Counted from the stretch's first letter, positions 2,963 to 17,756 are shown. The stretch is DNA of 64,000 bases from Bdellovibrionia bacterium (GCA_030427805.1 JAUICP010000002.1:558001-622000); one strand, 5' to 3'. Made by a program: numbers and translations. The notes: a model not told the origin generated them from the sequence alone.

Positions 2963-4384
2963 ATGGATGTTTTAATAAAGACGACATTTACTATCATTCT
3001 CTGCTTCTCAGCAGTTAATTTTGCCTACAATGTGATAGGCTATTTCTCTTCTAAAAAAAGAGATCAATTGCTTTTAGCAAATTTCTGGCTCGCCCTTATT
3101 GTAAACTTTTTTATTCAAGGAGCCGCTCAAGCTGACGAAAACCAAATTATCGCTTCGTTTGCTTTTTCACTCCTACCTGCGAGTTTGCTTTGCCTGTCGC
3201 TATTCTCTTTTCTAAACAAGAAGATTACCAATAGGTTTTTGTTTACGAATGCGTCTATCGCAATCATTCTCTCTTTTACTTTTATTGTTTTAGATATTGG
3301 TAGTTTTACGATTCGAGCTCTTCCCATTTCAATTGGTGGAGCTATTGCTATGCTATACACAGCTTACTTCATGACCAAAGAGTCTAAGGGTCGCCCTTTA
3401 TTCAAGGTGGCAGCATTCATTCTCGTTTTGACAACTATTCACGGAGTCAATTTTGCTTTTTTCCGTAATCAACCGGGAAATCAGGTTTGGGGTTGGCTCA
3501 CTGCTTATGCTCTCTACCAAGTCTTAGCAGCTCTCCTCCCTGCGCTCGCACTCGTAGAGTACAGTCGCGACGAAAAGAATAGACTCACTCAGATAATTAA
3601 CGAAAAAACCCAGGCGCTCAAAGCATCAAACGCCGAACTTGCAGCCAACGTCGGTTTTAAAGAATTCCTATTTAAAACTCTCTCACACGATATCGCGACC
3701 CCGATCATGATCGCCATGAATAGTATAAATTTACTCACCCGTGGCGAACACGACGAGCGAACCACTAAGGCACTCAACAGAACAAAAGTTTCCTTAGATA
3801 AGATTTCGGAGATCCTCATCGACCTAAGAAGCCTCGAGATTAATGATCCTCACACCCATCAAATTCCACTGAGTCAATGTGTTGAGAAAATAGAAAGTGA
3901 ATTCTCGGCCATGCTTCAGGACAAGCAGATCGATCTTAATGTCGATCCAAACATTGAAGATGTTATCGTCGAGGTGCACCCCTCAACTTTTACAAATTCC
4001 GTCCTTTCAAACATACTCAGGAATGCAATCAAGTTTAGTGAGAGAAACTCAAAAATTAATATTAATCTCGAAATGAAGTCCGAAAACAGGGTCCTCATCT
4101 GCATTGAAGACTTTGGATTGGGCATTCCAAATGAAATTCTAGAAAACATTTTTCACTTCTCGTCTGAGTCCAGTCGCCCTGGAACCGAGGGTGAACAGGG
4201 CACTGGCTGGGGCTTACCCATAGCTCAGACCATTCTTAAGAACTACGGTGGCGACATCTACATCGAGAGTCAGACCTCAAATGACAAAAATTCAAATAGT
4301 TTCACGCGGGTCTTTATCGAGGTTAACGGCTTCTTAAAAAACAATTCCGAGAGATTTTCGGAACTTAAGGAAACCGCGAACTAA
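2963..4384 (+). CDS. Seven-TM sensor histidine kinase
   Basis: 473 residues. The first 200 contain about seven hydrophobic segments (roughly 4-24, 37-55, 64-85, 92-112, 119-138, 146-165, 177-198) with very short loops, so sensing is probably within or at the membrane rather than by a periplasmic domain. A short coiled linker follows, then HisKA with the phospho-acceptor His242 (LSHDIATP), and an HATPase_c domain with N box (ILRNAIKFS, Asn354), G1 (EDFGLGIP, about 382-389) and G2 (GTGWGLPIA, about 413-421). No response regulator is adjacent. The next two genes, in the same direction after 80 bp, encode a GNAT-like protein and an HDO oxidase. Multi-TM sensor kinases beside a small-molecule synthase gene are seen in the CqsS/CqsA and LqsS/LqsA quorum-sensing systems, which is why I treat these as one locus. 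Confidence 0.9.
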   Translation: MDVLIKTTFTIILCFSAVNFAYNVIGYFSSKKRDQLLLANFWLALIVNFFIQGAAQADENQIIASFAFSLLPASLLCLSLFSFLNKKITNRFLFTNASIAIILSFTFIVLDIGSFTIRALPISIGGAIAMLYTAYFMTKESKGRPLFKVAAFILVLTTIHGVNFAFFRNQPGNQVWGWLTAYALYQVLAALLPALALVEYSRDEKNRLTQIINEKTQALKASNAELAANVGFKEFLFKTLSHDIATPIMIAMNSINLLTRGEHDERTTKALNRTKVSLDKISEILIDLRSLEINDPHTHQIPLSQCVEKIESEFSAMLQDKQIDLNVDPNIEDVIVEVHPSTFTNSVLSNILRNAIKFSERNSKININLEMKSENRVLICIEDFGLGIPNEILENIFHFSSESSRPGTEGEQGTGWGLPIAQTILKNYGGDIYIESQTSNDKNSNSFTRVFIEVNGFLKNNSERFSELKETAN

Positions 4385-4464
4385 AGTTAACTCTTCCTTA
4401 ATGTTAATTGAATCTTTACCATTATTAATTTTGCGATTGCGGTATTTCATTATAGAAGTACTGC

Positions 4465-5181
4465 ATGGAAATAGCTTACACAGATTTCGAACTTATAATT
4501 TTACCCGGTCGCAATCCCTCTAAGGTCTTCGAGACCTTTTATGAAGCGGCTTACGAGACTTGGCACAAAACCTGGACTGAAGCGGCTCAGGAGCTTGAGG
4601 ACTTTCCAGAAACTCTATACGCCAACGACTTCCTCTCGCAAAACGAAGTCTTTGGTTTGTTCTATCGTGGTGAGTGCACTTCTCTCGGCTTGCTGACTCC
4701 TCTAGATATGAACTTGAGAGCCTCAAGGGAAGACGCCTACTTCAAAAACTGGAATGACGAAGCCATTGAACAACTAACAAAAGATGGAAGCGTCGTCATA
4801 AAGAATAGTTACTTTACTGTCGAAAGAAAGTATCGTCGCTGGGCTAGAGAGCATGGCTTTAAATTTCCAGATGTTCATGTGGGACTTTTTAACAAACGTC
4901 TTGAAGAATCTAACTTTTCGGCAATGACTAGTACCAGTCGCAACAATCGCAAAATAAATGAAGTCTGTATCAACGGCGGTGCAAAAGTCATCTCTAAGGA
5001 TCTTGAACAGCATGGCGTAAAAATTGACCTTCTGAGTTGGTATAAAAATGATATTAAATTTAACCCGGATGTTTATGAACTCGTAGAAGACATTTGGAAT
5101 CGTCGAAAAATTGATCCAAAGGTCCTTCAATATCCCGATCAAGTCATCAGTGAGCCGAAACAACCAGATTTAAATATTTAA
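4465..5181 (+). CDS. GNAT / autoinducer-synthase-like protein (putative acyltransferase)
   Basis: A 238-residue cytosolic protein with no signal peptide. Around residues 55-85 it has a strand-turn-strand segment (EVFGLFYRGECTSLGLLTPLD), and near 110-128 a segment (SYFTVERKYRRWAREHGF) resembling motif A of GNAT acyltransferases, as in N-acyl amino acid or acyl-homoserine-lactone synthases. The likeness is structural and weak, so acyl transfer is a hypothesis. It ends 10 bp before the HDO gene, whose start has a clear AGAGG site, so the two form an operon. The intermediate C-terminal part (SRNNRKINEVCINGGAKV) matches nothing I know. Confidence 0.55.
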   Translation: MEIAYTDFELIILPGRNPSKVFETFYEAAYETWHKTWTEAAQELEDFPETLYANDFLSQNEVFGLFYRGECTSLGLLTPLDMNLRASREDAYFKNWNDEAIEQLTKDGSVVIKNSYFTVERKYRRWAREHGFKFPDVHVGLFNKRLEESNFSAMTSTSRNNRKINEVCINGGAKVISKDLEQHGVKIDLLSWYKNDIKFNPDVYELVEDIWNRRKIDPKVLQYPDQVISEPKQPDLNI

Positions 5182-5191
5182 AGAGGTAATT

Positions 5192-5788
5192 ATGAATTTA
5201 GAAAAAGAATTCACAGAATACTATGACAAGTGCTACCAACTGGATTGGGCTGACGAAAAATTTTATAAAAATTTTCTCGCGCAATCCTACTTCTATATCC
5301 GGCATTCGACTAAAACATTAGCCCTCGCCGCTTCTCATTTGAGCTTTGAGGACAATAAACTGTTTAAAAGAATGGTTAAGCATATCGCTGAAGAAATGAA
5401 CCATGAAATGCTTTGCACAAAGGACCTTAAAAATCTCGGCCATGGCATCGATGAGTTTCAAGAATTCCCAGAGACCCAAAGCCTTTACCAGGCACAGTAC
5501 TATAAAATCCAACATCAAAATCCAAAGAGCTATTTGGGCTACATCTATGTCCTAGAGAGTTCTTGTGTGAATATTCTACCAAGAATTTTAAAGGATAAAC
5601 TCAACGATAAATTTGATAAATTGGCTCTCACATTTTTAAGTGTCCATGCTGACGAAGACGTTGATCACATCGAATCGGCAAAGAAGGTCATTTCTGAACT
5701 CAGTGGATCTGATTTAGAGAGCGTCGAAGACAATATGAAATTTACAATGAAGAGTTATCTTAATTTCTTGCGAGCATGCCAAGAGTAA
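5192..5788 (+). CDS. Heme-oxygenase-like di-iron oxidase (HDO / TenA-fold)
   Basis: 198 residues, all helical. Candidate metal ligands are arranged as in HDO enzymes (UndA, BesC, CADD, SznF family): Glu68-x2-His71 (EEMNHE), Glu122 (VLESS), then His152-x3-Asp156-x2-His159 (HADEDVDH). The H-x3-D-x2-H spacing is the one described for CADD. Family members use O2 for oxidative decarboxylation, C-C cleavage, N-oxygenation or pABA formation, so the reaction cannot be read from sequence. The gene is directly behind the GNAT-like gene with its own good ribosome binding site (AGAGGTAATT before ATG). The stop codon lies only 3 bp from the stop of the convergent gene. Confidence 0.8.
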   Translation: MNLEKEFTEYYDKCYQLDWADEKFYKNFLAQSYFYIRHSTKTLALAASHLSFEDNKLFKRMVKHIAEEMNHEMLCTKDLKNLGHGIDEFQEFPETQSLYQAQYYKIQHQNPKSYLGYIYVLESSCVNILPRILKDKLNDKFDKLALTFLSVHADEDVDHIESAKKVISELSGSDLESVEDNMKFTMKSYLNFLRACQE

Positions 5789-5791
5789 CTA

Positions 5792-6535
5792 CTACGGGGC
5801 CTCACAGCCTAAACTCAGTGATTTGAACCTCACTCGGCCCCTGACAAGGAGTTCATTATTTTGTTCTGTACACGCATCGGGCTCAAGTAAATCAAATTGA
5901 ACTTTGTAAGACTCAGGGCACTTCTCTGTTTGAATATCAAAACTCTTCAATAGGCCCTGAGGGTTATTGGACTCAGATTCATCAATAACTTTGTACCTTA
6001 GTGAATGACTTCCCTGACTGGTCGCTATTTTGAATAGGGCCAAGTCCAGACAATAGTTCCCAGTTACAGTTTGTCGAATGGGGACAAACCCCACCTGAGA
6101 TACTTCCACTTCACTTAACTCCTCAGGAGCCAATTCATCAATCTGTCGCCACTGGGCTGCTTCAAGAGATTTATAACAGCGATCTACAACCCAGCCGTAG
6201 CCCCAACGCCAGGTCGATGGAAGCCCTGGCACTCCACCGACCGTCACTCCGGCTTCCATTAGGTTGCCTAGGGGTTCCAGCCCCTTTTCTTGGACGCATT
6301 TATTTAAGGCCCTGTCAGAGGCTGCCCTTTCTTCTTTGGTCCCACCCATCCAATAGGCTAAATCATGGGCCTTGCAGCAGATGGTCCAATCAACGTTTCC
6401 GAATGAGTCGGGAAACTTACTGCACCCATCGGTCTTGAAGGGAAGGAGTTCGTTTTCGAATGTTTTATACTCCCCTTGATTCCCAGTTGCCGACAGTGGA
6501 ATCAAAAGTAGCGTAATCAAAATCTTTTTAAACAT
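5792..6535 (-). CDS. Secreted phospholipase-A2-like protein
   Basis: 247 residues with a signal peptide (MFKKILITLLLIPLSATG). Residues 36-66 carry TDGCSKFPD, W..CC..HD..Y and a GGT: Cys53-Cys54, His57-Asp58 match the PLA2 active-site motif CCxxHDxxY, and downstream Asp/Cys (DRALNKC) fit the disulfide-stabilised helix. The rest (about 120-247) is a separate beta-rich domain with Cys residues that I cannot name. The expected role is hydrolysis of phospholipids outside the cytoplasm. The calcium-binding loop is not obvious, so activity is uncertain. The next gene upstream on this strand encodes a fatty-acid hydroxylase/desaturase-like membrane protein, which would fit a lipid theme. Confidence 0.65.
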   Translation of the reverse strand: MFKKILITLLLIPLSATGNQGEYKTFENELLPFKTDGCSKFPDSFGNVDWTICCKAHDLAYWMGGTKEERAASDRALNKCVQEKGLEPLGNLMEAGVTVGGVPGLPSTWRWGYGWVVDRCYKSLEAAQWRQIDELAPEELSEVEVSQVGFVPIRQTVTGNYCLDLALFKIATSQGSHSLRYKVIDESESNNPQGLLKSFDIQTEKCPESYKVQFDLLEPDACTEQNNELLVRGRVRFKSLSLGCEAP

Positions 6536-6584: not shown

Positions 6585-8027
6585 CTATTCGGGATTGAGA
6601 ACCGAAGCTCCCCAGTAATATCCCATATCGTGATCCCGATCCATTTCTGCAAGCTTCTCCATATCGGGCAGGCTTAACGTACCCAGTAGAATATCACCAA
6701 TAAAGTTCGTGAGATTAAAGTTTAAACTCGGTTTATCGTGATGAACCCAGTGAATTCCACGAATGATCTCTGAAACCTTTGTACTCAATGCCCCTCTTAA
6801 AAAACCATCTTCAGAGGTTATACGATCCAATTCTTCTTGCTTGAGGTGGGTATATTCATGAAATGTTAAAAGGCCTTCAGACTCGGGCCTTAAATCACCG
6901 CCCTCTTCATATCTTTTTTCGTGATTTTTCTCCGATAGCAAACCAATGGGATAGAAGTAGCCCGGACCCAGCAGTAGGGCCAATTGAACAGGCTCAACAC
7001 CAATAGCAAGCCCCAAAACAGTGAGGACGATAAAGGGACTAATTAAACTCAAATAGTTAGAATCCGATATAGCAAGACCATACCCTGTCTTCTTCATATG
7101 CTTCACATAGAACTCAGACATGTGTTTTAAAATAAAGTTATCCGTCTTCAGCATCTGGGCGATCGATTTGAACTGCTTGTTGTAATCTAGAAAACTGAGG
7201 GGACCATGGTGAACTCTTTGGTGATTAAAACCCGTGTCGTGAACCATTTTAAATAAACCCATCTTTACCGCAAGTTTAGACTTTTTAAGGGTATCCAACA
7301 TCTTCGCCGATGGATGGGCTAAATATCGATGGAAAAGATTTTCAGAGATAGACATTAATGCTACCCCAGAGATGCCAAGACTGAGATTCTGCCCACCGGT
7401 CACGGCAAAAGCCATTGATGTCACAATCATTGTCGTAATAAATGCCTTGTACTCGGCCTCCGTTGAAATCAGTTGATGAAAAATACTACTAAAAGTAGAG
7501 GTGCCGTCCTCGTTGTATTCATTAAAGCTAGTCTGATAGAACATTAAAACTTTGTTTGACTGCCCATCAAGGAGACTCCGAGGAAGGCGCTCACCCAGGC
7601 GAGCCCCTAGGACCTCCTCACCAACTAAATTTTGCCAACTTCTCTTTAAAAGGGCTTCAACCCGCAGTTTTAGACCATTTTGCAGACTTTCATCTACGGC
7701 GAGACCCAAATACTCGGGATTTCGATAGAGGTAAGAGAGGGCTGCATGCTCGGCCACACGTAAGTTTTCTTCTGAGGATTCCAGTTTTTCGATCCAACGG
7801 TTGAGCTGCTCTCGTTCTTTATCCTCGTTTAACACGAGCTTGAAAATGGCCTTTATAGCCTCTTCTTCAGCTAATTCTAATTGTGTTCGCAGATTTCGTT
7901 GAACCAGGGATTCTTGGTGCCGAGAGGACAATTTGTAGAGCTGAAATTCGCAAATCGGCATCGCCTTAAGGGCGAGGGGGAACAAAAACGAAAGTAATAA
8001 TGAAGTAATTAGACTTCTAATCAACAT
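6585..8027 (-). CDS. Membrane fatty-acid hydroxylase/desaturase-like protein with signal peptide
   Basis: The frame extends to 8048, but I place the start at the ATG at 8027 because it is preceded by CGGAG seven bases upstream; the ATG at 8048 has no such site. The product (480 aa) begins with a signal-like segment (LITSLLLSFLFPLALKAMP), then about 190 residues of charged helical sequence. The catalytic-type part follows with the histidine clusters HRYLAH (233-238), HQRVHH (269-274), HEYTH (390-394) and HWVHHD (426-431) and hydrophobic helices between them. This is the His-box pattern of membrane di-iron hydroxylases and desaturases. The long N-terminal extension with an export signal is unusual for that family. 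Confidence 0.65.
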   Translation of the reverse strand: MLIRSLITSLLLSFLFPLALKAMPICEFQLYKLSSRHQESLVQRNLRTQLELAEEEAIKAIFKLVLNEDKEREQLNRWIEKLESSEENLRVAEHAALSYLYRNPEYLGLAVDESLQNGLKLRVEALLKRSWQNLVGEEVLGARLGERLPRSLLDGQSNKVLMFYQTSFNEYNEDGTSTFSSIFHQLISTEAEYKAFITTMIVTSMAFAVTGGQNLSLGISGVALMSISENLFHRYLAHPSAKMLDTLKKSKLAVKMGLFKMVHDTGFNHQRVHHGPLSFLDYNKQFKSIAQMLKTDNFILKHMSEFYVKHMKKTGYGLAISDSNYLSLISPFIVLTVLGLAIGVEPVQLALLLGPGYFYPIGLLSEKNHEKRYEEGGDLRPESEGLLTFHEYTHLKQEELDRITSEDGFLRGALSTKVSEIIRGIHWVHHDKPSLNFNLTNFIGDILLGTLSLPDMEKLAEMDRDHDMGYYWGASVLNPE

Positions 8028-8168
8028 AAAACAACTCCGAACCAGCACATAGATCGAGGGAGTCTTAGTACCTCAAAAATTGAGTAGGAAGACTCATACG
8101 ATCAACAACCTTTAACTTCGGAGATTATGAGAGCAATTAGCAGACCAAAACGTCAACGTGATGAGAGT

Positions 8169-16358: not shown

Positions 16359-17756
16359 ATGCAAACGCGTAAAATACTCATTGTTGATGACGAACCCACT
16401 TTAAGAACCGCACTGAATAGAGTCCTTGGATCACGAGGTTATAAATGTATTAGTGCCGGTAATGTGGACGAAGCCAGACAGATCGCAAAAGCCCAACCAG
16501 ATATTTCACTCGCATTAATAGATTTACGCCTTCCTGATGGTGATGGTATCGAATTAATGGCTGAACTCAAAGCTGCCAACGATGATTTACAAGTTATTAT
16601 TTTAACTGGATTCGGTACGATCGATACCGCCGTTCGCGCTACAAAGAATGGTGCTTTTCATTTTGTTACCAAACCCTTCAATCTTGAAGAGATTAACTCA
16701 GTTGTTCTTAGGGCTTTTAGTCACAGTAACCTTGAAGCTGAAAACAAAGAACTCAAGAAGGAGCTCTCAGGACGCTATAAGTTTGACAATATTATTGGGC
16801 AGTCCGAGGGAATTCGAAATGTTTTAAGTCTTGTTGAGCGTGTTGCAGATTCTGACTCAACGGTACTCGTTACTGGTGAAAGTGGAACCGGTAAAGAACT
16901 GATTGCCAGGGCTGTTCACTTTAATTCTCCTCGAAAGAGCAAAGCATTTGTACCGATCAACTGCGGTGCTATTCCCGGCGAGCTCCTCGAGAGCGAACTC
17001 TTTGGTCACGTCAAAGGGGCCTTTACAGGGGCTGTGAATAATAGAACGGGTCGCTTTGAGCTAGCCAATGGCGGAACACTCTTCTTAGACGAAATTGGAG
17101 AACTGAGCCTGAACTTACAAGTTAAACTCTTGCGCGTATTGCAGGAGCGCCGCTTTGAACCCGTCGGAAGTGTAAAGACGATCGAGGCCGATGTTCGAAT
17201 TATCGCTGCAACTAATATCAATCTCGAGAAGGCCGTTAAAGAAGGTAAGTTCAGAGAGGATCTCTACTACAGACTTAACGTGATCCCCATAAAAATTCCA
17301 AGCCTCAAGGAACGTCGAGAAGATATACCCCTCTTAATAAAATACTTTATCGATTCTTTTAATAAAACCAAATCGCGCAGCTTGACCGGTGTCAGCGCCC
17401 ATGCCTTAGAGTATCTCAGCCATTACGAGTGGCCCGGTAATATCCGCGAACTTGAAAACTTTGTGGAAAGAGCTGCCATCTTAAAAGGTCAGGGCAATAT
17501 CGAGATCGATGATTTGCCAAGCCACATGCGAGAAGTATCAAACGCCTCACTCGGTGATATCGATATTGAAATTCCTGACATTGGTTTAGATTTCAACTCG
17601 GCCGTTGATGCCTACGAAAATGCCTTGATTCTTCAAGCTCTGGAAAAAACCGGATGGAACAGAAATCAAGCTGCGATATTGCTCAAGCTCAATCGCACGA
17701 CCCTTGTTGAGAAAATCAAAAAGAAGGGACTCAAACCCACCGAAGCCACCGCCTAG
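16359..17756 (+). CDS. NtrC-family sigma-54-dependent response regulator
   Basis: 465 residues with a complete layout. The receiver (1-120) has the DDE acid pair and the phospho-acceptor Asp in LALIDLRLPDGDG. The AAA+ domain (about 145-380) has Walker A GESGTGKE, the sigma-54-contacting loop GAFTGA, Walker B TLFLDEIGEL, and the R-finger region. A Fis-type helix-turn-helix ends the protein (GWNRNQAAILLKLNRTTLVEKIKK). It activates sigma-54 promoters after phosphorylation; the NtrB-like kinase at 13025-14917 is the natural candidate partner. The start has AGGAAGG upstream. The stop codon lies inside a long palindrome. Confidence 0.95.
   Translation: MQTRKILIVDDEPTLRTALNRVLGSRGYKCISAGNVDEARQIAKAQPDISLALIDLRLPDGDGIELMAELKAANDDLQVIILTGFGTIDTAVRATKNGAFHFVTKPFNLEEINSVVLRAFSHSNLEAENKELKKELSGRYKFDNIIGQSEGIRNVLSLVERVADSDSTVLVTGESGTGKELIARAVHFNSPRKSKAFVPINCGAIPGELLESELFGHVKGAFTGAVNNRTGRFELANGGTLFLDEIGELSLNLQVKLLRVLQERRFEPVGSVKTIEADVRIIAATNINLEKAVKEGKFREDLYYRLNVIPIKIPSLKERREDIPLLIKYFIDSFNKTKSRSLTGVSAHALEYLSHYEWPGNIRELENFVERAAILKGQGNIEIDDLPSHMREVSNASLGDIDIEIPDIGLDFNSAVDAYENALILQALEKTGWNRNQAAILLKLNRTTLVEKIKKKGLKPTEATA

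Follow-up and report, generated by a model that had tools for sequence, protein, structure and literature searches.

A conserved synthase–oxidase–sensor gene cassette in Bdellovibrionota and its possible role in signaling

Does a histidine kinase whose sensor lies wholly in the membrane read a small molecule made by the enzymes encoded beside it? The question is raised by a locus in a 64,000-nucleotide stretch of DNA from a Bdellovibrionia bacterium (GCA_030427805.1 JAUICP010000002.1:558001-622000; hereafter the window), in which three genes follow one another on the + strand, exactly where a first, sequence-only reading had placed them when it proposed a new signaling-molecule system. They encode a seven-transmembrane (7TM) histidine kinase (TMHK; 2963..4384, 473 aa), a putative acyltransferase or synthase assigned by profile alignment to the GNAT superfamily (SYN; 4465..5181, 238 aa), and a heme-oxygenase-like di-iron oxidase (HDO; 5192..5788, 198 aa). 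Comparison with related genomes indicates that the three genes very probably constitute one functional cassette. Synteny and the exchange of sensors among loci lead us to favor, by a modest degree, a signal–receptor function, in which the GNAT-type enzyme and the oxidase would make a small molecule that the kinase senses.

The three genes are conserved together in related genomes, one of the two points on which the sequence-only reading had staked its proposal. A neighborhood survey found TMHK, SYN, and HDO side by side in 20 loci, the window included, which span four families and two classes: five loci belong to families f1, f3, and f9, and 15 to family f18, a member of another class. In family f18, a kinase lies within 3.5 kb in 16 of the 40 SYN loci surveyed outside the window's order, and 15 of these 16 loci also carry HDO. 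Six family f18 kinase loci reproduce the gene order and strands of the window, and elsewhere the arrangement is HDO-SYN-kinase, or the kinase is divergent or lies downstream, with different flanking genes; with such variation, the triad cannot be a single block passed on by descent. Placing the TMHK label on the HDO tree takes four changes, of which well-supported branches force two or more. A related-loci search of genome contigs also recovered a near-copy from another genome of this genus (SYN 98% identical, same layout), which, as the nearest sequenced relative, is not independent evidence, and the same search found no related locus in viral contigs. In several f18 loci (L372-L374 and L378), a biopterin-dependent aromatic amino-acid hydroxylase, confirmed by Pfam in L372 and represented by look-alikes in the others, stands just upstream of kinase-SYN-HDO, possibly hinting at an aromatic substrate or reflecting genus synteny only.

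The kinase itself bears out the description of a fully membrane-embedded sensor, as hydropathy gives about seven membrane segments, all within residues 1-200, with no periplasmic domain; a short linker then leads to a catalytic part with HisKA (E 1e-5; H-box LSHDIATP with H242) and HATPase_c (E 6e-17). No significant match to the membrane part was found in Pfam, NCBIfam, PDB, or plasmids. Of the order's 141 genomes, 20 encode this membrane domain, and 13 of the 20 copies adjoin HDO or an HDO-like gene with the set of three histidines and three carboxylates (3H/3C). The eight best copies of the order all lie in SYN/HDO or HDO loci; TMHK accompanies both SYN and HDO in the window, its near-copy, G060, G065, G067, and G098, and accompanies HDO and a methyltransferase-like protein in G061 and G062. 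Five weaker copies, those of G097 and of the four g7 genomes (G014, G017, G019, and G024), adjoin a divergent HDO-like gene whose product keeps three histidines and three carboxylates, with D/E swaps. Separately, a distant 7TM kinase in L204 (3965-7790) stands beside an HDO-like protein and a 540-aa Pyr_redox_3 flavoprotein, which may represent another pathway served by this kind of sensor.

From its family and ligand set, the window HDO is predicted to be a di-iron O2-dependent oxidase. It matches PF14518 (Haem_oxygenas_2 / HO-like domain) at E 3.3e-13, over the cut-off, and the six ligands that had been read from the sequence (E68, H71, E122, H152, D156, and H159) proved 100% invariant across 51 diverse homologues with 23-40% identity to it. 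This 3H/3C set is the ligand set of the HDO superfamily (PMC13108848). By profile, the nearest solved structures are 3dde (E 1e-21) and MboA (E 6e-7), the latter an enzyme of mangotoxin biosynthesis. The PF14518 domain is shared with UndA, BesC, MboA, CADD, AetD, and SznF, among which the 3H/3C set is as here except for the 3H/4C set of SznF. HDOs catalyze widely different chemistry on one ligand set, so the reaction of the window enzyme is not readable from its sequence. To our knowledge, no characterized HDO belongs to a synthase-sensor cassette.

SYN is less readily placed in a family. Neither the single protein nor a 61-sequence family profile gave a significant match in Pfam, NCBIfam, or PDB, no Pfam GNAT model included, and PDB matches to repeat proteins (E 0.03) were dismissed as helical noise. 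The family consensus contains "TVxPxxRK" followed by an "RxDxxV...G" block. When 81 SYN sequences were aligned by hhalign with 26 ordinary GNATs, the two profiles matched over 94 columns (P 6e-5, Prob 65), with GNAT motif A (beta4, then V-x-P-x-x-R) in register with SYN "eyltVxPxxRk" and the C-terminal GNAT "N..ai.fY.k.Gf" region aligned with SYN "RxdxxV...Ga". Six random halves gave P 2e-5 to 1e-3; as controls, reversed profiles gave P 0.25-0.38 and five unrelated non-GNAT families P 0.2 or worse, and the best P among the remaining pairs of the profile set was 0.029. We therefore take SYN to be a divergent GNAT on the strength of this alignment. The earlier description of SYN as GNAT-like and synthase-like is thus upheld by the profile comparison in its first part, and its likeness to autoinducer synthases found no counterpart in family models: the N-acyl-homoserine lactone (AHL) synthase model (Autoind_synth) is absent among the listed Pfam/NCBIfam matches of the 61 family members, as is FeeM among their listed Pfam matches. 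Weak FeeM matches are limited to proteins that occupy SYN's position in G064 and Deefgea. T_hemolysin was rejected as a SYN homologue (hhalign P 0.37 to SYN and P 0.18 to the GNAT profile). BLAST found SYN relatives in 76 of the order's 141 genomes, and the profile found them in 108 of 291 genomes of the phylum.

SYN and HDO form a single unit. In the window, HDO starts 10 bp past the SYN stop, with AGAGG preceding its ATG. BLAST located 96 SYN places in the order, and 72 of them have HDO within 1500 bp, 63 of these in SYN-HDO order on one strand; by profile, HDO lies near 90 of the order's 110 SYN loci, a figure somewhat inflated by loci chosen via HDO, and outside the order, where loci were picked via SYN alone, HDO was found in 34 of 40. 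Natural SYN-HDO fusions exist in two genomes (L089 5913-7280, 455 aa; L110 5459-6835, 458 aa). The SYN and HDO trees agree in a mirror-tree comparison (r 0.45, against a permutation maximum of 0.19), an agreement that shared species history could cause. The pair is also found on plasmid pBdHM1 of Bdellovibrio sp. HM001 (AP029175.1, L309, 707-2393) together with a PAS protein, which shows that plasmids can carry the module; all three are annotated as hypothetical, and the SYN call is probably too short.

Either enzyme of the pair can be exchanged. Nine of the order's HDO-less loci have a fatty-acid desaturase-type gene next to SYN (in L117 and L121, PF00487 matches at E 1e-28 to 3e-38), and a FAD_binding_4 oxidase takes HDO's usual position in L385 (3158-4828) and L386 (5725-7326), with PAS nearby. 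The constant theme is a GNAT plus an oxidizing enzyme. On the synthase side, the gene overlapping HDO in G064 encodes a different GNAT-like protein (Acetyltransf_5 E 0.0085, FeeM E 0.05), a FeeM-like protein (E 0.0039) precedes HDO in the betaproteobacterium Deefgea, and the protein between HDO and the 7TM kinase in G061 and G062 resembles an S-adenosylmethionine-dependent methyltransferase (L125 1002-1829; L126 6248-7075). A related HDO also occurs on plasmids of Vibrio, Pantoea, Citrobacter, and Pseudoalteromonas, in an operon with T_hemolysin, AMP-binding, and short-chain dehydrogenase/reductase (SDR) genes, and in these gammaproteobacterial plasmid loci (L305, L306, L307, L308, and L310) two of the operons are followed by response regulator and kinase genes. 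The protein named "thermostable hemolysin" in these operons may be misnamed and have a biosynthetic role instead.

The window alone could not reveal that a different sensor is the commoner one. The majority of SYN loci carry c1, a protein of about 240 aa whose C-terminal part has a PAS fold (P 3e-6 and Prob 88 by hhalign to PAS_9), often accompanied by c2, an XRE-type helix-turn-helix protein of about 95 aa (HTH_3 E 3e-16), and c1/c2 are commonly convergent to the SYN-HDO pair. In 150 SYN loci, PAS was found in 111, the 7TM kinase in 21, both in none, and neither in 18; with phylogeny ignored, Fisher tests of this exclusion gave 3e-15 overall, 1e-4 within the order, and 1.5e-8 outside it. The window's genome holds one SYN and no PAS gene of the c1 family according to a model that finds PAS in G075, G067, G046, G109, and G071. 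Two of these genomes, G075 and G067, have both locus types, each sensor with its own SYN-HDO pair, as in the kinase locus (C27) and the PAS locus (C33) of G067. That two unrelated sensors alternate at one enzyme pair is most easily explained if both read its product. A GNAT toxin-antitoxin reading of SYN with XRE was rejected, because HDO is SYN's usual partner and the window locus lacks XRE.

On the signal–receptor interpretation, SYN, as a GNAT-fold acyltransferase, would link an acyl group to an amine or amino acid, as its superfamily suggests, and HDO, encoded in the same operon, would use O2 to oxidize the product of SYN or its precursor. The 7TM kinase would sense the small product through its membrane domain and pass the phosphoryl group to a response regulator encoded elsewhere in the window's genome; in most relatives, the cytosolic PAS protein, often with the XRE-type DNA-binding protein, would serve the pair instead. 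An oxidized N-acyl amine or amino acid is our guess at the product class, taken wholly from the analogy with FeeM/FeeG. The earlier statement that no response regulator is close holds in the window, where the nearest one found, an NtrC-type protein (16359-17756), is at a distance of 12 kb. In some relatives, however, the kinase has regulators close by (G060, G061, G062, and G065, also G014, G017, and G019), some of those beside the kinase being single-domain proteins. Most cqs/lqs-like clusters comprise a synthase and a sensor only (PMC3376566).

Known synthase-receptor systems offer several points of comparison. Adjacency of the two genes is the rule for CqsA/CqsS and LqsA/LqsS, the alpha-hydroxyketone quorum-sensing systems, in which a synthase gene stands beside a kinase with a membrane-helix-bundle sensor and no large periplasmic domain (PMC3285556; PMC3376566), an adjacency to which the earlier reading had already pointed. 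TMHK has the same layout, a transmembrane-only sensor and then HisKA/HATPase_c, which is a likeness in mode of working. CqsA and LqsA are pyridoxal phosphate enzymes and, unlike SYN, not GNATs, and the cqs/lqs systems lack HDO. CqsS has six membrane helices (PMC4821796; PMC3285556), versus about seven segments in TMHK, whose membrane domain matches no Pfam, NCBIfam, or PDB entry. CqsS also carries a receiver domain. Synthase and receptor genes are likewise adjacent in AHL systems of the LuxI/LuxR and LuxM/LuxN types, the receptor being cytosolic (LuxR) or a membrane kinase (LuxN), much as PAS or TMHK is here; the present cassette differs in including an O2-dependent oxidase and in having PAS with XRE in place of the LuxR architecture. 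LuxI-type synthases resemble GNATs and FeeM structurally, the likeness of FeeM and LuxI-type enzymes being without sequence similarity (PMC9654057). A chemical precedent for SYN plus HDO is given by the FeeM/FeeG system for N-acyl-tyrosine and its enamide, in which a GNAT-type N-acyltransferase acylates tyrosine and FeeG then oxidatively decarboxylates the N-acyl amino acid (PMC8762209); the differences are that the oxidase here is an HDO and that a dedicated sensor is linked. The gammaproteobacterial T_hemolysin operons share a related HDO with a small enzyme-like protein and sometimes a following response regulator and kinase, but their pathway is longer (AMP-dependent ligase, SDR) and their kinases carry a 2CSK_N N-terminal domain. 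Conservation of synthase and sensor together, a criterion for quorum sensing, extends over the 20 triad loci and the 111 SYN loci with PAS. The cassette would work like synthase/receptor quorum-sensing pairs, and by family models its synthase appears to belong with neither LuxI nor FeeM.

The main rival holds that SYN and HDO make a regulated metabolite, such as a lipid, antibiotic, or metal ligand, whose production the sensor controls on an outside cue (oxygen, iron, membrane state, or prey). We consider it a real but lesser possibility. HDOs serve mostly natural-product pathways (PMC13108848), and the gammaproteobacterial HDO stands in a biosynthetic operon; in two cases, genes for a response regulator and for a kinase with a different kind of N-terminus come next. 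Heme, flavin, and other cofactors are common ligands of PAS domains, and an HDO depends on O2 and iron. The strict alternation of unrelated membrane-embedded and cytosolic sensors at the same pair (0 of 150 loci with both), however, is most readily explained if both read the product, and the pathway is two enzymes long, like known signal synthases, with no transporter or nonribosomal peptide synthetase gene consistently near SYN-HDO. Remodeling of membrane lipids is improbable by our estimate: SYN would make an N-acyl amino-acid lipid, HDO or a desaturase would alter its acyl chain, and the 7TM kinase would read the bilayer like DesK. A transmembrane-only sensor fits a membrane cue, desaturase-type genes adjoin SYN in several HDO-less loci, and PF13444 GNAT-type enzymes make aminolipids. 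But 112 of the order's 140 genomes already encode a PF13444-type acyltransferase at another place, and SYN would have to be an additional one of very different sequence; moreover, a cytosolic PAS/XRE pair would be an unusual bilayer reader, and FAD_binding_4 oxidases can occupy HDO's position. That the kinase and SYN-HDO are unrelated and merely adjacent is scarcely credible. The 80-bp gap without overlap, the missing response regulator, and the non-independence of the near-copy would permit it, but the 20 loci in four families with differing orders and flanks, together with the HDO-like gene beside TMHK in the four g7 genomes and G097, refute it as far as synteny allows.

Several observations weigh against the signal–receptor interpretation that we favor. 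A kinase or PAS/XRE beside biosynthetic genes may control them on another cue (oxygen, iron, or membrane state). No response regulator adjoins the cassette in the window, seven of the 20 TMHK copies of the order have no HDO nearby (some on cut contigs), and the 18 SYN loci with neither sensor show none within 3.5 kb, a few lying at contig ends. The GNAT assignment of SYN is based on profile alignment alone, a single-sequence AlphaFold2 model having a predicted local distance difference test score (pLDDT) of 33, and the alignment of SYN with the PF13444 profile is weak (P 0.015-0.018), its collinear register not being counted as proof. In sum, the signaling proposal has gained a GNAT profile and a conserved triad, and the roles of product as signal and kinase as receptor are inferred from synteny and sensor exchange.

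The kinase stop and SYN start are separated by 80 bp (4385..4464, +), and the kinase may share a transcript with SYN. A scan for promoters and terminators found none with confidence: promoter-like sites were not above shuffled expectation, and the + strand of the gap holds none. Adjoining HDO on the opposite strand is a gene for a 247-aa protein (5792-6535, -) with a signal-peptide-like N-terminus and a weak match to prokaryotic phospholipase A2 (E 0.005). Two genes downstream of HDO, also on the opposite strand, lies a gene for a 487-aa His-rich membrane protein (6585-8048, -) that is fatty-acid-hydroxylase-like by eye (FHRYLAH, HQRVHH, and HWVHH), with no significant Pfam match.

A literature search, with subscription papers mostly outside its coverage, found no described GNAT/HDO/kinase or GNAT/HDO/PAS unit and no published signal synthase for Bdellovibrionota, and none of the family libraries names SYN, the TMHK membrane domain, or the whole unit. 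We tentatively suggest, at somewhat short of an even chance, that these loci represent an undescribed, phylum-wide signal family in Bdellovibrionota, for cell-cell communication or self-sensing, which would combine a GNAT-type synthase and an HDO, desaturase, or flavin oxidase with two interchangeable receptors, the 7TM kinase and PAS, often with XRE. The cassette supplies named genes that can be tested, those of an oxidase subfamily, of the PAS module that serves as an alternative, and of a synthase family and a kinase sensor domain that Pfam does not contain. Where two unrelated sensors alternate at a single biosynthetic pair, genome comparison also argues for a ligand-receptor relation, a line of reasoning applicable to other systems. 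Since the module is carried by a plasmid of Bdellovibrio sp. HM001 and has relatives in complete genomes, experiments are within reach, and should the proposal be true, predatory bacteria would possess a chemical language native to them.

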